The notes beneath the pieces were generated by a model. It did no database searches, was not told where the DNA came from, and was given only the letters and a program-made list of their open reading frames with translations. A stretch of DNA of 64,000 nt from an uncultured Alphaproteobacteria bacterium (GTDB lineage: Bacteria > Pseudomonadota > Alphaproteobacteria > Caulobacterales > Caulobacteraceae), in the NCBI GenBank assembly GCA_903909375.1, contig CAIVVM010000024.1, positions 1 to 64,000 on the forward strand. The letters are read 5' to 3'. Shown in pieces: positions 55,378 through 63,210 of this stretch (position 1 is the stretch's first letter; every line of letters begins with the position of its first letter). A program made the translations under genes and the position numbers.

Positions 55378-56256
55378 ATGAGCGACGCCACCTATACCCC
55401 GCCCGCCGTCTGGACCTGGAACAAGGAGAGCGGGGGCCGGTTCGCCGCCATCAACCGGCCGATCGCCGGTCCGACCAAGGAGCATGTGCTGCCGGTGGGC
55501 AAGCATCCGATGCAGCTCTATTCACTGGGCACGCCCAACGGCGTGAAGGTGACGGTTATGCTGGAGGAGCTGCTGGCGCTGGGGCATTCGGGCGCCGAGT
55601 ACGACGCCTGGCTGATCAATATCGGCGCGGGGGATCAGTTCGGCTCGGGTTTCGTCGACATCAATCCCAATTCCAAGATCCCGGCCTTGCTGGACCGCAG
55701 TGGCCCTACGCCGATCCGGGTGTTTGAATCCGGCGCGATCCTGATCCACCTGGCCGAGAAGTTCGGTGAGTTCCTGCCCACCGAGCCGGCGGCGCGGGCT
55801 GAGTGCCTGTCCTGGCTGATGTGGCAGATGGGCTCGGCGCCCTTCCTCGGCGGCGGGTTCGGCCACTTCTACGCCTATGCGCCGATCAAGATCGAATACG
55901 CCATCGACCGCTACGCCATGGAGGTGAAGCGCCAGTTGGACGTGCTGGATCGCCGTCTGGCCGAGAGCGAGTATCTGGGCGGCGCCGATTACACCATCGC
56001 CGACATGGCCGTCTGGCCCTGGTACGGGGCCCTGGTGAAGGGCGTAGTCTATGAGGCCGGCGAGTTCCTGCAGGTGGCCGAGTACAAGAACGTCATCCGC
56101 TGGACCGACCAGATCGCAGAGCGTCCTGCCGTCAAGCGCGGCCGAATGGTCAACCGCGCCCAGGGTGATCCGTCCAGCCAGCTGCGCGAACGCCACGATG
56201 CCTCGGACTTCGACCTGCGCACCCAGGACAAGCTGGACGCAGCCGCCGCCGGCTGA
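55378..56256 (+). CDS. yghU: Glutathione-dependent disulfide-bond oxidoreductase YghU
   Basis: A 292-residue GST-superfamily protein very close to E. coli YghU: GKHPMQLYSLGTPNGVKVTV, EYDAWLINIG, PNSKIPALLD, FLGGGFGHFYAYAPIKIEYA and a tail with LRERHDASDFDLRTQDK are nearly superimposable. YghU-type (Nu-class) enzymes bind two glutathiones and reduce disulfides or organic peroxides. Start ATG 55378 (MSDATYTPPAVWTWNKESG) matches the family start. Divergent from the dioxygenase operon. Confidence 0.92.
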   Translation: MSDATYTPPAVWTWNKESGGRFAAINRPIAGPTKEHVLPVGKHPMQLYSLGTPNGVKVTVMLEELLALGHSGAEYDAWLINIGAGDQFGSGFVDINPNSKIPALLDRSGPTPIRVFESGAILIHLAEKFGEFLPTEPAARAECLSWLMWQMGSAPFLGGGFGHFYAYAPIKIEYAIDRYAMEVKRQLDVLDRRLAESEYLGGADYTIADMAVWPWYGALVKGVVYEAGEFLQVAEYKNVIRWTDQIAERPAVKRGRMVNRAQGDPSSQLRERHDASDFDLRTQDKLDAAAAG

Positions 56257-57438: not shown

Positions 57439-57957
57439 CTAAACCGTCAGCGCTGCAATCACCTGCTCCAGCACCGCGCGGGCCTTGCCGCGCATCTCGT
57501 CGTCGGTGGCGTCCTGGATCGGATGGTCCACCAGCACGTAGCGCGCGCCCTCCATGCCCAGCGCCTTGCGCTGAACCTCGGCGGCCTGGCCAAACTCACT
57601 GGAGGCGATGGTCACCGCCGGAAGTCCCTGGATCTCGAACCACACAGTGTCGTGCAGACTGCACGTCGTGCATGATCCTCAATCGGCCAGGCCTTCCACC
57701 AGAACCGCGCACTCGGCCTTGATTTTCAGGCGCAGGTCCGACGGGCAGGGCTTGGTGAAGGTCGGCTTTGCGTAGCGCTTGATCTCCACTTTCGGATACC
57801 GGGCCGCCATCAGCACTTCCAGCTCGTCCAGCAGGATGTTGCCGCGGGGCTTGGCGATATCCAGCAGCCCGATCACACCGGTGATATCGCCTGTCCGCGC
57901 GGTGATCTGGCGCTCGACGGGGACCCGCTCATCGGTCGGGTCCAGAATGGTCGTCAT
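57439..57957 (-). CDS. UGSC-type selenoprotein (in-frame TGA at 57679-57681 read as selenocysteine)
   Basis: The frame runs from ATG 57957 to TAG 57439 with one in-frame TGA as codon 93. Read through, the codons from the TGA give Sec-Gly-Ser-Cys-Thr-Thr-Cys, and the protein continues smoothly for 79 residues (TVWFEIQGLPAVTIASSEFG). This is the motif for which the UGSC selenoprotein family is named; cysteine forms carry CGSC. GGGAGG lies six bases before ATG 57957; an ATG at 57963 touches it and is too close. A hairpin directly after the TGA fits a bacterial SECIS, and selA, selB and selC are next door. Likely a thiol/selenol redox protein of unknown substrate, co-transcribed with the thioredoxin-like gene 31 bases upstream. 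Confidence 0.92.
57651..57665 (-). ncRNA. Bacterial SECIS hairpin of the UGSC selenoprotein mRNA
   Basis: On the minus strand CGTGCA-GTC-TGCACG forms a perfect 6-base-pair stem with a 3-base loop. The loop begins 19 bases after the UGA, within the 16-37 base window used for bacterial SECIS models, and its first base is G as those models require. An A-A mismatch and a further G-C pair extend the stem. It should bind the winged-helix end of SelB and recode the UGA. Confidence 0.75.
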
Positions 57958-57988
57958 CGACATCCTCCCTGGTTCAGCCCTGAGGCTA

Positions 57989-59575
57989 TCAGTATTCGAT
58001 TTTCCGGGAAACGCTGATCGATCCCATCGGTCCGGTGACCCAGCCGTGGAAGGCGGCCGAGAATTTTCCGGCGTCTGACCCTGCCACCACGATGTGGATG
58101 TAGGCGTCGCTGGCGAACTTGGAGACCGGCGTGTCGAGCTGCGCGTCCGTCATCTTCGCGGCCATGGCCCGGGTAATGCCGGCGCCCGAGATCTCGTTGG
58201 CCACCATCTCGCGCATGGGTCGCGTCGTCACCGCCTGGATGCGTTCTCGCAGACGCGCCTTGGAGTAGGGCCCCTCGCTGGTCAGGGTGGCGACATGTTC
58301 GGGACAGACCACCAGCAGGGCGTCGGTGTGCATCCGCCGGATCTTGGACAGGAACATGCTTTCCAGCCCGAGGCCCAGGGTGCCTCCCATCTGGTCGGGT
58401 CCGCGTGACTCCTGATCCACGATCTGCACCGGCCCGCTGGTCATGGCGAAGGCGGTGACCACCGAGTCCTCCGCCTTGAAGCCGCGCTCCACATGCAGCG
58501 GCTCCCAGGGCGAGCCCTCCTCCCACTCCGCGAAGCACATGGTGAACTTCATCGGGCTGCTGAGGGTGGAGCGGTCCACGCCGCCGGGCTGGGCGCCGCC
58601 CACGTTTCGCACCACCAGCCTGAGCGCGCGGCCGATGGTGGCGTTGGCGCGGTTGCCGGGTCCCAGCGCTCCCAGCCGCATGTTCATGCCGATGCGTTCA
58701 CGGATCGGGCCATTGACCACCAGCACCGGCGAGGCGCCCATGGTGGTGGCGGTGACGCCATGCATGTTGAACTCGTCAGTGCAGACGGCCTCGACGGCGG
58801 CGATCACCACCGGCAGGTACTCGGGTTTGCAGCCCGCCATCACGGCGTTGATGGCGATCTTCTCCACCGTCACCGGCGCCATGTTGGGCGGCACGATGGC
58901 GACAATATCCTGCGGCGCGCGCGGTGTGCCCGCCAGCATGCGGATCACCCGCTCGGCCGTGGGCGGGATCAGCGGCAGGCCGTCGCTGAAGCCCTGGTCG
59001 AACATGAACTCGGCGATGTCGTCGGCGCTGGCGATCTCGATCCGCCGCGCCCGGATCGGGCTGTCGTCGGCCTCGGCCTGAAGCTTGTCGTGGATCTCCG
59101 GGTCCAGGTGTTTGGAGCCGCAGCCGGGCCGCCAGTCCGGCAGGTCCGCCCAGACGATGGCGGCGGGTGCGGCGTCGAGATCGGCGGCGATCTGGCGGTC
59201 CAGGGCCTGCCACTCCTCCCTGACAAAACCTTCCAGCTTGGTCTTCACCACGCCATCGGCGCCGATCCAGTAGACCGCCGGGACGATCTCGAAGTCCCAT
59301 GCAAAGGAGGTCTTGCAAGCGCTGTCGTCCAGGAACGGCAGGGTGAAGCCGTGGCGATCCTGCAGGATATCGTTGCCCTCGGTCGACTGGCCGAGCACCA
59401 GCACGTCGGCGGCCTCACCCCACGCCTGGTGAAACGCCTCCAGCAACGGCGCCGCCAGATTGCAGGTGTGGCAATCCTCCTTGATGAAGGCGATCAGGCT
59501 TGGCCGCGCCGTCGGGAACCGCCGGGTCTCGCCGGCGCGGTCGGTCAGGGCGAAAGGCGGGCAGGGCACGGTCAT
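57989..59575 (-). CDS. Thioredoxin-like domain fused to a large uncharacterised domain, UGSC partner
   Basis: A 528-residue protein. Residues 1-140 look thioredoxin/TlpA-like with KEDCHTCNLAAPLLEAFHQA (redox pair CHTC) and no signal peptide. A short WRPGCGSKHLDPE linker carries a CGS sequence. From about 175 to the end is a long conserved domain (EFMFDQGFSDGLPLIPPTAE, PPNMAPVTVEKIAINAVMAG, GPIRERIGMNMRLGALGPGN) that I do not recognise as a known enzyme. It lies between selC (22 bases) and the selenoprotein gene (31 bases), so it probably works with that protein, perhaps reducing it. The SD before ATG 59575 is weak. Confidence 0.8.
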   Translation of the reverse strand: MTVPCPPFALTDRAGETRRFPTARPSLIAFIKEDCHTCNLAAPLLEAFHQAWGEAADVLVLGQSTEGNDILQDRHGFTLPFLDDSACKTSFAWDFEIVPAVYWIGADGVVKTKLEGFVREEWQALDRQIAADLDAAPAAIVWADLPDWRPGCGSKHLDPEIHDKLQAEADDSPIRARRIEIASADDIAEFMFDQGFSDGLPLIPPTAERVIRMLAGTPRAPQDIVAIVPPNMAPVTVEKIAINAVMAGCKPEYLPVVIAAVEAVCTDEFNMHGVTATTMGASPVLVVNGPIRERIGMNMRLGALGPGNRANATIGRALRLVVRNVGGAQPGGVDRSTLSSPMKFTMCFAEWEEGSPWEPLHVERGFKAEDSVVTAFAMTSGPVQIVDQESRGPDQMGGTLGLGLESMFLSKIRRMHTDALLVVCPEHVATLTSEGPYSKARLRERIQAVTTRPMREMVANEISGAGITRAMAAKMTDAQLDTPVSKFASDAYIHIVVAGSDAGKFSAAFHGWVTGPMGSISVSRKIEY

Positions 59576-59597: not shown

Positions 59598-59692
59598 TGG
59601 CGGAGATGGATGGGAATCGAACCCACCACACGCCTTTTGGACGTGTCACTGGTTTTGAAGACCAGGGAAGCCACCAGACTCCAGTCACCTCC
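59598..59692 (-). tRNA. selC: tRNA-Sec (selC), anticodon TCA
   Basis: A 95-base tRNA gene with encoded CCA (59598-59600) and G discriminator. The anticodon arm CTGGT-CTTCAAA-ACCAG is perfectly paired and displays TCA (59656-59658). The variable arm is long (ACACGTC pairing with GGCGTGT around CAAAA), the T arm has the loop TTCGATT, and the D stem is six pairs with one mismatch. Acceptor stem pairs GGAGGTG with CATCTCC plus one weak eighth pair. These extended features and size match bacterial selC, which is 95 nt in E. coli. It sits between selB and the thioredoxin-like gene. Confidence 0.95.
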
Positions 59693-59756: not shown

Positions 59757-61652
59757 CTAGCGCACAACCCTGCGCACGTCCCCTTCCCGCGTCGTCCATC
59801 CGATCTCGTCCAGATACTCCAGCACCGGCACGATGAACTTGCGGCTGGTGCCCAGCGCCGCGCGGGCCTCGCCGGTCGTGAAGGTCAGGGGCGGCGGGAA
59901 GGCGGAGCCCAGCGTTGCGACGGCGTCGTCCAGGCAGGCGGGATGAAACACCAGGGTCTGGCGCAGCGACACATTGCGCAGGGATACCACCCGGCCGTCC
60001 TCGACCAGCAGCTGGAGCAGGTCGGCCAGGCCCGGATCACCGCCGGTCAGCTTTGCAGGGTCCGGCGGGGTCAAGCCGCCCTCGCGCAGGGTGACCTCCA
60101 GATCGCCCAGTTGGCTCAGGGCCTCGGGCGCGAGGGATGCCAGAGGATCGTGTCCGCTCAGGGCCACCCGTCCTGCATCAAGTCGGATGGCGCCGTCGCC
60201 GGCAAGCGCGCGTTCGACGGCGTTGACGATCTCCCGGGCGGTTTGCCGGGCGAGCGCGCCCCGGACGTCGCCCACCGCTGCCATCCGGCGCGTGGGTGCG
60301 GCCTGATGGGCGGCTACCAGTAGGTCGAGATAGGCGGTGCGTGTAGTCGCCAGGGCGTCGCGCGCGGCGAAGCGGCCGTCGCCCAGGTCCTGAAAATCGA
60401 GAGCCAGCGCCGCATGGGCCGCCGGCGCGTCGCACCGCCCAAGCCGGGCCAGCTCAGCCATCGCGAGTGTGCCGCCATCCCGCGTCGCCAGCTGGCCGGC
60501 TATTTCCTGGATATCGCCGGTCGTTGCGGCCTCCAGCACGGCGCGGCGCAGGCCGGGCCGCCCGCGATAGACCGGCGGATCAGGGTCCAGGACAATGACG
60601 CCGCCGATCGTCGCCGCCGGTGACAGGCGCCGCAGCACGCCGCGCTGGCCGGCATAGGCGATCACGGGCGATACAAATCGAAGCTGGGCGAAGTCTTCTG
60701 CGCCGGGCGCGATGACCCCTGCTCCCATCAGCCGCACCGACGCGACATCCTGTCGTGCGCCCCACATGACCCTGACCTGGTCGAGGTGTTTCAGCGGGCG
60801 GGGCGCGCCTGCGTCCAGCGTCAGTCGCACATCGACCTGGCTGGTGGCGGTGAAATGGCCCGGCGAACACAGCACGTCGCCGGGCCGGACCTCGTCCAGC
60901 GCGACGCCGCGCAGGCCCACCGCGACCCGCCCGCCGGGCGGTGCGGCTTCGACGGTGCGGCCATGAACCTGAACCTGGCGCAGGCTGACGCTGCGGCCGG
61001 ATGGCTCCAGCACCATCCGCAGGTCCGGCGTCAGCGACTGACCCTGCAGCACCCCGGTCACGACCACGCCCGCGCCGGGAACCGTGAAGACGCGGTCGAT
61101 GGGCAGGAAGGCGCCGGGCAGGGCGGTCGGCGGCGGCGCGTTGGCCCGCAGGGCGTCAATCGCTGCGTGGAGCTGGTCCAGGCCCTGCCCCGTCAGGGCG
61201 GAGCAGAAGACCACCGGCGCCCCGTCCAGGAAGGTTCCTGCCAGCGTCGCCTGGATGTCCGCGCGCCGCTCGGCCTGGATCTCCGGTGACGCAAGGTCGG
61301 CCTTGGTCACCGCGACCACGCCGACCCCCAGGCCCAGAAGGGCGGCGATCTGCAGGTGCTCCCGCGTCTGCCGCCCGAACCCCTCGGTCGCGGAGACCAC
61401 CAGCATGACGGCGCGGACGCCGGTCATGCCCACGACCATCGCCCGGATGAAATCCTCATGGCCGGGAGAATCGATGATGTCGATCTCGCCCGAAGGATAG
61501 CCGCGCCAGGCGAATCCCGGCGTGATGGACAGGCCCCGCGCCTGCTCCTCGGGCAGCCGATCGGTCTCGATTCCGGTCATTGCGCGCACCAGCGCGGTCT
61601 TGCCGTGGTTGACGTGGCCGATGACGCCCAGGGTCAGGGGTGCGGTCGGAAT
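59757..61652 (-). CDS. selB: Selenocysteine-specific elongation factor SelB, probable ATT start
   Basis: About 631 residues, near the usual SelB length. G1 motif GHVNHGKT is at residues 12-19, G3 is SPGHEDF and G4 is TKAD, followed by EF-Tu-like domains and C-terminal winged helices (SRKFIVPVLEYLDEIGWTTR) that bind SECIS RNA. It carries Sec-tRNA to the ribosome. The frame has no ATG, GTG or TTG at the position expected from homology; GGGGAGG sits five bases before an ATT at 61652-61650, giving I-P-T-A-P-L-T-L-G-V-I-G as the N-terminus. A far-upstream TTG (position L22 of the open frame) lacks an SD. selC follows on the same strand. Confidence 0.9.
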   Translation of the reverse strand: MPTAPLTLGVIGHVNHGKTALVRAMTGIETDRLPEEQARGLSITPGFAWRGYPSGEIDIIDSPGHEDFIRAMVVGMTGVRAVMLVVSATEGFGRQTREHLQIAALLGLGVGVVAVTKADLASPEIQAERRADIQATLAGTFLDGAPVVFCSALTGQGLDQLHAAIDALRANAPPPTALPGAFLPIDRVFTVPGAGVVVTGVLQGQSLTPDLRMVLEPSGRSVSLRQVQVHGRTVEAAPPGGRVAVGLRGVALDEVRPGDVLCSPGHFTATSQVDVRLTLDAGAPRPLKHLDQVRVMWGARQDVASVRLMGAGVIAPGAEDFAQLRFVSPVIAYAGQRGVLRRLSPAATIGGVIVLDPDPPVYRGRPGLRRAVLEAATTGDIQEIAGQLATRDGGTLAMAELARLGRCDAPAAHAALALDFQDLGDGRFAARDALATTRTAYLDLLVAAHQAAPTRRMAAVGDVRGALARQTAREIVNAVERALAGDGAIRLDAGRVALSGHDPLASLAPEALSQLGDLEVTLREGGLTPPDPAKLTGGDPGLADLLQLLVEDGRVVSLRNVSLRQTLVFHPACLDDAVATLGSAFPPPLTFTTGEARAALGTSRKFIVPVLEYLDEIGWTTREGDVRRVVR

Positions 61653-61794
61653 GTGCGCCTCCCCGGGGCTGGCGACGATCAGGAGGGGCCACAGTAAGGC
61701 TCCGGGTGGCCGGTTCAAACGTCCGAATCGTCGCCGGTCCCTTGCTCGGGCGGCCGCCAGCTCGCTACAACAACATCCCACAGGAGGCAGACCC

Positions 61795-63210
61795 GTCGCC
61801 CGCCAGGCCCCCAGGCCCGTTCATCAGGATCCCCGTCGGCGTCTGCCGGCGGTGGGCGCGATCTGCGCTGATCCGGCGGCCCTGGCGCTGGGTAGGCAGT
61901 TTGGCGACGCCGCGGTCACCCGGACAGTGCGTGCGGTGCTGGCCGATGTTCGCGAACGCCTGCTGAGCGACGCCCCCCTGATCCCGACTGTGGCCTCCCT
62001 GCTGGACGAGGTGGAGCGGCGGCTGGCCGACACCACCCGCGAGACGCTGTTCGGGGTGATCAACGCCACCGGCGTTGTCATCCACACCAACCTCGGCCGC
62101 GCGCCGCTGGCGCCCGAGGCGGTGGCCGCCATGACGCTCGCCGCGGGATACGGCAATCTGGAGCTAGACCTGGAGGGCGGGCGGCGCGCCTCGCGACATG
62201 ATCATCTGGAGGCGCTGATCGCCGGCGCAACCGGGGCTGCGACCGGCCTTGCGGTCAACAATTGCGCCGGCGCCGTGGTGCTGGCGCTCGCGGCGCTGGC
62301 CGCCGGTACACCCGTGATCGTGTCGCGGGGCGAGATGGTCGAGATCGGCGGCGGGTTCCGGGTGCCGGACATCGTGGCCCAGAGCGGCGCACGGCTGGTT
62401 GAGATCGGGACCACCAACCGCACCCATCTGCGCGACTACGAACAGGCGGTGGCCGACCACCCCGAGGCGCGGGTGATCCTGCGCACGCACCCCAGCAACT
62501 ACCGGATCACCGGCTTCACCAGCGCGCCATCGCTGGAGGCGCTGGCCGCCTTCGCCCATGCGCGGGGCCTGTTGCTGGTGGAGGATCTGGGGGGCGGCGC
62601 CCTGATCGACCTGGCGCCTTACGGGATCGAGGGAGAGCCCCGGGTACAGGAGAGTGTGAGGGCCGGCGCGGATCTGGTGATCTTCAGCGGCGACAAGCTG
62701 ATGGGCGGGCCTCAGGCCGGGATCATCGCCGGACGTCGCGAGCTGGTCGAGACCCTGGGCCGCCACCCGCTGGCGCGCGCGCTTCGGCTCGACAAGCTGT
62801 CATTGGCGGCGCTGGCGGCGACGCTGCGCCTCTATCGCGCACCGTCCGATCCCACGCTGCGGGTGCCGGTGTTGCGGATGCTGACCCAGCCGGGCGACGT
62901 GATCCGGGCGCGGGCCGAGGCGCTGGCGGCGATGGTGAGTGACATCGGCGACCTCCAGGGCGAGGTGATCGAAACCCGGAGCTACGCGGGTGGCGGGGCC
63001 ATGCCGATGCATGCCCTGGCGGGCTACGCGCTCAGCGTTCAGACGCCTGCGATGGGCGCGGAGGCTCTGGCCCACCGTCTGCGCACCGGGCCGGCGCCGG
63101 TGGTCGGCCGGATCGAGCGGGACCGGGTGCTGCTGGATCTTCGCACGGTGAACGACGGCGAACTCGATGCGCTGTCGGCAGCTCTTCGCCGCGCCCTGGC
63201 GCCTGGCTGA
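61795..63210 (+). CDS. selA: L-seryl-tRNA(Sec) selenium transferase SelA, non-canonical start
   Basis: About 471 residues (E. coli SelA 463). The N-terminal RRLPAVGAICADP fits the SelA start region; then VINATGVVIHTNLGRAPL and NNCAGAVVLAL follow, and the PLP lysine lies in SGDKLMGGPQAG at about residue 301. SelA turns Ser-tRNA(Sec) into Sec-tRNA(Sec) using selenophosphate. A perfect AGGAGG at 61782-61787 points to GTC at 61795 with seven bases between; no ATG, GTG or TTG is nearby upstream in frame, and the first GTG downstream is already inside the conserved region. It is divergent from selB across about 142 bases. Confidence 0.92.
   Translation, partial: VARQAPRPVHQDPRRRLPAVGAICADPAALALGRQFGDAAVTRTVRAVLADVRERLLSDAPLIPTVASLLDEVERRLADTTRETLFGVINATGVVIHTNLGRAPLAPEAVAAMTLAAGYGNLELDLEGGRRASRHDHLEALIAGATGAATGLAVNNCAGAVVLALAALAAGTPVIVSRGEMVEIGGGFRVPDIVAQSGARLVEIGTTNRTHLRDYEQAVADHPEARVILRTHPSNYRITGFTSAPSLEALAAFAHARGLLLVEDLGGGALIDLAPYGIEGEPRVQESVRAGADLVIFSGDKLMGGPQAGIIAGRRELVETLGRHPLARALRLDKLSLAALAATLRLYRAPSDPTLRVPVLRMLTQPGDVIRARAEALAAMVSDIGDLQGEVIETRSYAGGGAMPMHALAGYALSVQTPAMGAEALAHRLRTGPAPVVGRIERDRVLLDLRTVNDGELDALSAALRRALAPG

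Follow-up and report, generated by a model that had tools for sequence, protein, structure and literature searches.

A domain family fused to thioredoxin-like domains as the predicted partner of the UGSC-containing selenoprotein

The UGSC-containing selenoprotein is known from the GOS survey, the available text of which assigns it no function, calls its fold thioredoxin-like and records its fusion to a conserved domain named 'Unknown_1' (PMC2398784). An obligate partner, a link to thioredoxin or thioredoxin reductase (TrxR) and selenocysteine (Sec) in a partner protein are not described in that available text. Thioredoxin-dependent electron flow is known from glycine reductase, in which electrons pass from NADPH through TrxR, thioredoxin and GrdA to GrdB (PMC3091704), a protein whose motif is UxxCxxC (PMC13188914). 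Here we describe a locus within a window of 64,000 nucleotides, the whole stretch of DNA analysed, from contig CAIVVM010000024.1 of an uncultured Caulobacteraceae bacterium (GCA_903909375.1). The gene order is selB, selC, a gene joining a thioredoxin-like domain to a large domain (LD; the fusion is called Trx-LD), and a UGSC gene, with selA divergent (Table 1). The original prediction had placed the fusion gene between selC and the selenoprotein gene, and this is the arrangement that we find, with short spacers on both sides. The open reading frame of selA is over-extended at its start: the SelA N-terminal domain begins near 61834.

Table 1. Features of the selenocysteine locus in the window
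Feature	Position	Strand	Remarks
selA	61522..63210	(+)	PF03841, E 2e-130; divergent from selB
selB	59757..61781	(-)	GTP_EFTU, SelB-wing_3; start codon uncertain
selC, tRNA-Sec	59598..59692	(-)	22 nt upstream of Trx-LD
Trx-LD fusion gene	57989..59575	(-)	ORF, ATG start, 528 aa
Thioredoxin-like N-domain	59123..59575	(-)	HMM match residues ~19-151
CHTC (C35-H-T-C38) of the N-domain	59462-59473	(-)	
Linker motif P150-G-C152-G-S154	59114..59128	(-)	Cys codon TGC 59120-59122
LD	57992..59050	(-)	~residues 176-528
LD residue C249	58829-58831		
LD residue C347	58535-58537		
UGSC family selenoprotein gene	57439..57963	(-)	174 aa with Sec95, motif DUGSCTTC; 25 nt downstream of Trx-LD
In-frame TGA (Sec95) of the UGSC gene	57679..57681	(-)	
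SECIS-like hairpin	57637..57678	(-)	immediately after the UGSC TGA

The Trx-LD protein comprises an N-terminal thioredoxin-like domain with a CHTC site, a PGCGSK linker and LD, of about 350 residues. Full-length homologues with identities of 76-83% are present in four relatives, and the CxxC of the N-domain is kept throughout the Trx-LD homologues aligned; the reading frame and this conservation bear out the predicted junction of a CHTC thioredoxin-like domain with a large one. The N-domain has no significant match in Pfam, and its first ~150 residues give sub-threshold matches to ResA (E 0.21) and YkuV (E 0.017). The likeness to thioredoxin, ResA and YkuV-type thiol oxidoreductases lies in the CxxC domain at the N-terminus; unlike these proteins, the N-domain of Trx-LD is highly diverged and tied to LD by a fixed PGCGS linker. 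LD had been called unrecognised, and a profile search of residues ~176-528 agrees: no match was found to Pfam (33 homologues searched singly), NCBIfam (searched with the window protein) or PDB sequences. In the annotated plasmid records seen, LD is a 'hypothetical protein'. It is a previously unnamed family, widespread across bacteria and haloarchaea, and is probably the 'Unknown_1' domain mentioned in the available text of PMC2398784.

The gene downstream of Trx-LD belongs to the family of UGSC-containing selenoproteins, matching PF24696 with 156.4 bits (cut-off 25) and NF041046 with 162.8 bits (cut-off 125). A UGA at the conserved Sec site, a SECIS-like hairpin behind it, and selA, selB and selC at the same locus mark the gene as a selenoprotein gene. 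Most close homologues preserve the apical stem of the hairpin, GTGCAG-TCT-GCAC, and one of them (L130) shows a compensatory change; folding energies of the hairpins were not better than those of shuffled sequences.

Presence of LD follows presence of UGSC across genomes. Both families occur in the identical 28 of the 289 genomes of the window's class (Fisher 1.5e-39; the co-occurrence p-values ignore shared ancestry, and the pattern nonetheless recurs across classes and down to haloarchaea). Among 40 close relatives both are found in the same five; an apparent sixth LD carrier (G039) was discarded as a chance match lying antisense inside a HemW-like gene. A distant actinobacterial class of 247 genomes, entered via an Acidimicrobiaceae MAG, has LD in 91 genomes and UGSC in 89: 87 carry both, 4 LD only, 2 UGSC only and 154 neither. 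Both genes are present in 117/120 loci examined, mostly adjacent, and in several lineages they are joined in in-frame UGSC-LD fusions. For the 127 pairs lying no more than 600 bp apart, mirror-tree comparison of LD and UGSC distances gives r = 0.93. When partners were exchanged between systems inside a genome the mean r was 0.74, and the observed value was reached in 0/1000 trials, which indicates that every LD is matched to a particular UGSC. The predicted two-protein system is thus upheld by co-occurrence in two distant classes, adjacency, in-frame fusions and pair-specific co-evolution, and the interpretation of LD and UGSC as obligate partners is strongly supported by sequence and context. 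The opposite situation, an LD common away from UGSC or CGSC genes and with a known unrelated function, was looked for and did not emerge. Two LD genes, L083 (G119:C136) and L104 (G104:C161), lack an adjacent UGSC gene in genomes that carry UGSC elsewhere; they are possibly orphan copies or partners in trans.

The source of electrons is indicated by the distribution of thioredoxin-related genes. LD is fused to a Trx domain in 92 loci, none of which has a TrxR-like gene (with CxxC) within 4 kb, whereas such a gene lies within 4 kb in 16 of the 45 Trx-less loci (p = 2e-9), in ten of them within 250 bp. The Arthrobacter operon reads trxB-trxA-LD-UGSC, and the order in Roseovarius is LD-UGSC-trxB. 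Substitution of the fused Trx by a local Trx/TrxR is the pattern of a thioredoxin-driven enzyme. The remaining 29/45 Trx-less loci are without a TrxR-like gene nearby, so household thioredoxin must serve there. The anticipated thioredoxin-linked redox system therefore appears in complementary loci as a fused Trx, a local trxB or a trxB-trxA pair, and on this gene context thioredoxin is well supported as the electron source of LD-UGSC.

The peptide between the two domains of Trx-LD had been regarded as an echo of the UGSC motif. The C152-G-S-K155 sequence is real and conserved, with PGC[G/A][S/A] present in 91/92 Trx-LD homologues and a Trx-to-LD spacing of 24 residues in 87/92; it is a motif in its own right and does not duplicate the UGSC domain. 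The sole exception among the 92 is an Acidimicrobiaceae MAG (L197), which has TGA at the linker Cys codon (L197:7926-7931). In a search of its class, the same codon was an in-frame TGA in four further genomes (identity 68-76%), and loci L214-L218 read PGUGS, Cys standing in the other homologues shown. The five TGA genomes, all of the Acidimicrobiia group, share an 8-bp hairpin 3' of the TGA with the loop CGGGC. All its pairs form in 5/5 genomes; at one pair both bases have changed (C-G to U-A), another shows a G-U/G-C change, and folding of two Cys homologues did not give this hairpin. Since the hairpin energies are no better than those of shuffles, its identification as a SECIS element depends on where it lies, on its conservation and on a small number of compensatory changes. 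This clade has CPAC at the Trx active site, versus CPTC or CATC. Replacement of the codon by TGA in one clade agrees with the importance ascribed to the linker cysteine, and the apparent exchange of Cys for Sec argues strongly that this residue has a redox role. Trx-LD of the five related actinobacterial genomes is probably an undescribed selenoprotein. As these genomes are close relatives, the switch most likely arose in a single event.

Fold and motif of UGSC point in the direction of GrdB. In its AlphaFold model (pLDDT 95) UGSC folds as a Rossmann/flavodoxin-like sandwich, the Sec lying at the N-terminus of a helix, and its Foldseek and VIA-align matches are Rossmann-like; the model does not support the thioredoxin fold given in the available text of PMC2398784. 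Second among the VIA-align matches of the model (m97d6cc6f5f70) stands 8s7v chain H, from the activation complex of methyl-coenzyme M reductase (128 residues, Z 11.1), which may simply reflect a common Rossmann-like arrangement. In alignment numbering, the UxxCxxC motif of UGSC has U94 in 116/117, C97 in 117/117 and C100 in 102/117 sequences. A comparison by hhalign with a GRDB-like profile built from proteins of the same class placed Sec on Sec with a probability of 46.7% (E 2e-4), while 45 control families gave at most 4.0%. The same method rejected homology of LD to UGSC (0.5%) and to GRDB (0.1%). These results are suggestive of remote homology between UGSC and GrdB/PrdB (PF07355) of glycine and D-proline reductase. 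The shared features are the UxxCxxC motif, the placement of Sec at a helix, an electron supply by Trx/TrxR that gene context indicates for LD-UGSC, and a separate large subunit; the remote profile similarity is suggestive. The systems differ in that Pfam does not link the families (PF07355 found no match in 23 UGSC proteins at E<=10) and LD is unlike the pyruvoyl subunit family PF09338 (GrdE/PrdA), which had no match in 33 LD sequences at E<=1. PF09338 also had no match in eight GRDB-bearing genomes, yet the control matched nowhere, so this search is uninformative on absence. In addition, the hosts of LD-UGSC include aerobes and haloarchaea, and here the partner, LD, carries the Trx domain as a fusion. 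The window's genome also contains two GRDB-like (PF07355) matches, at G000:C29:59137-59499 and G000:C40:22351-22689; the former bears PVUPNC with an in-frame TGA and represents a second selenoprotein family.

We lean towards the interpretation of LD-UGSC as a two-subunit Sec/Cys reductase, driven by thioredoxin, whose substrates would be small organic acids or carbonyls held by LD. Trx-LD would be one subunit of the (seleno)enzyme and the UGSC selenoprotein the other. Electrons would come from thioredoxin, by way of the fused Trx domain here and of a separate TrxR or a Trx/TrxR pair in the operons of other lineages. The Sec of UGSC, at the helix N-end of the Rossmann-like fold, would most likely attack a small substrate, bound at or near LD, at one of its electrophilic atoms. 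The resolving Cys of U-G-S-C would release the reduced product, leaving a selenenylsulfide, which would in turn be re-reduced via the CxxC of Trx and the Cys/Sec of the linker (PGC/UGS). Such action would be akin to that of glycine or D-proline reductase, but would take place in (micro)aerobic heterotrophs and haloarchaea and on diverse organic-acid substrates. We infer the Sec-attack chemistry, the substrate-holding role of LD and the direction of electron flow by analogy, and substrate binding by LD is a guess, as this domain has no confident fold match. A broader proposal, which we put forward tentatively and consider somewhat doubtful, is that LD-UGSC makes up an extensive, so far unrecognised group of reductases, driven by thioredoxin and of many specificities, whose Trx-linked subunit independently turned into a selenoprotein (PGUGS), giving Sec on both partners. 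Such an enzyme would form a diselenide or a Sec-to-Sec relay.

The assignment of catalysis to UGSC can be questioned from the side of LD, which could itself be the enzyme, perhaps a lyase or hydrolase that depends on a thiol and acts on organic acids, with UGSC and Trx acting as an activator or repair system that keeps C249 and C347 reduced. LD is the larger and more conserved partner, and its strongly conserved residues include D198, G199, P201, R316 and E350 (numbered as in the protein); its invariant D, G, R and E residues are of the kind typical of enzymes. Cys is retained at position 249 by 97% of homologues and at position 347 by 87%. In several systems LD is duplicated, with two copies beside a single UGSC. 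The AlphaFold model of LD (pLDDT 87) has no confident structural match; in Foldseek it comes closest to class I fumarase and Toblerone hydrolases (E 0.03), which would suit this reading. These matches are weak, with no match below E 0.02 and TM-scores <0.3. VIA-align (Z <=5.5) finds folds other than Toblerone or fumarase, and chorismate-mutase-like rows are also weak. A relation of LD to Toblerone-fold hydrolases (cyanuric acid hydrolase) or to class I fumarase, its top weak matches, is not demonstrated. The UGSC-LD fusions of Sporomusa (L240:8329-10053) and Vibrio (L241:8419-10104), which adjoin aconitase X and DUF126, have Met at the Sec/Cys position (GDMGTS and ADMGTS) and suggest that LD can work without a selenol; hence not every LD-UGSC member can perform Sec/Cys redox chemistry. 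These two redox-dead paralogues must work in another way or be degenerate. Against LD as the enzyme, C249 is Ala in four homologues, so that this cysteine is dispensable in some members, and many have lost C347. Nearly every LD has a UGSC at 1:1 or 2:1, in a strict co-evolution that exceeds the need for a general repair factor, and retention of Sec in all but one of the 117 UGSC copies of the locus set points to a catalytic site. We consider catalysis by LD unlikely on this balance. A proposed association of Ala at position 249 of the protein (Ala74 of LD) with a Cys-type UGSC in one genome (G284) was rejected, as other Ala74 members have Sec partners.

LD genes lie on plasmids and chromosomal islands, with up to 7-8 diverged LD-UGSC copies per genome, beside CoA-transferases, TRAP/TTT transporters, SDR/GMC oxidoreductases, RraA-family proteins and LysR regulators. 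These neighbourhoods look like catabolism of assorted organic acids, and the neighbour clusters indicate no single recurrent substrate. An antioxidant system, in which UGSC would act on peroxides, as a peroxide reductase or Sec peroxidase, while Trx-LD served it as scaffold and dedicated reductant, could draw on the Trx link and selenol chemistry, on the peroxidase activity reported for GrdB (cited in the available text of PMC3091704) and on thiol oxidoreductases being most of the known selenoproteins according to the available text of PMC2398784. We regard it as improbable: the multiplication of diverged copies beside organic-acid transporters, CoA-transferases, GMC/SDR enzymes and LysR looks like catabolic diversification, a peroxidase fold was not found, and the 350-aa partner is left without a role. 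Genes annotated as phosphosulfolactate synthase occur near LD-UGSC in Arthrobacter (L246:6668-7456) and Natrinema (L245:5847-6314), a possible hint at sulfonate substrates. DUF6282 genes recur at or near haloarchaeal LD (L245:10015-10848, L247:9029-9880, L248:3877-4773 and L254:3757-4653).

A role of Trx-LD in making or delivering selenium, which would fit its place between selB/selC and the selenoprotein gene in the window and the tRNA-Sec gene directly 5' of it in 5/8 related loci searched, is very improbable: most copies of other lineages are not near sel genes, and haloarchaea, Variovorax, Roseovarius and Arthrobacter do without Sec, having CGSC (Cys) pairs with LD intact, which rules out a purely selenium-handling function.

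Returning to the thioredoxin-driven two-subunit reductase, naming an obligate partner, an electron source and a second Sec in the partner turns the orphan UGSC into a testable two-protein enzyme. The CGSC pairs need no Sec machinery and should be expressible in ordinary hosts. If the likeness to GrdB/PrdB holds, Stickland-type reductive chemistry would extend into aerobic and archaeal organic-acid metabolism.

Directly 3' of the UGSC gene the window carries a gene for a YeiH-like putative exporter (PF03601; 56261-57337), beyond which lies a convergent GST gene (55378-56256).
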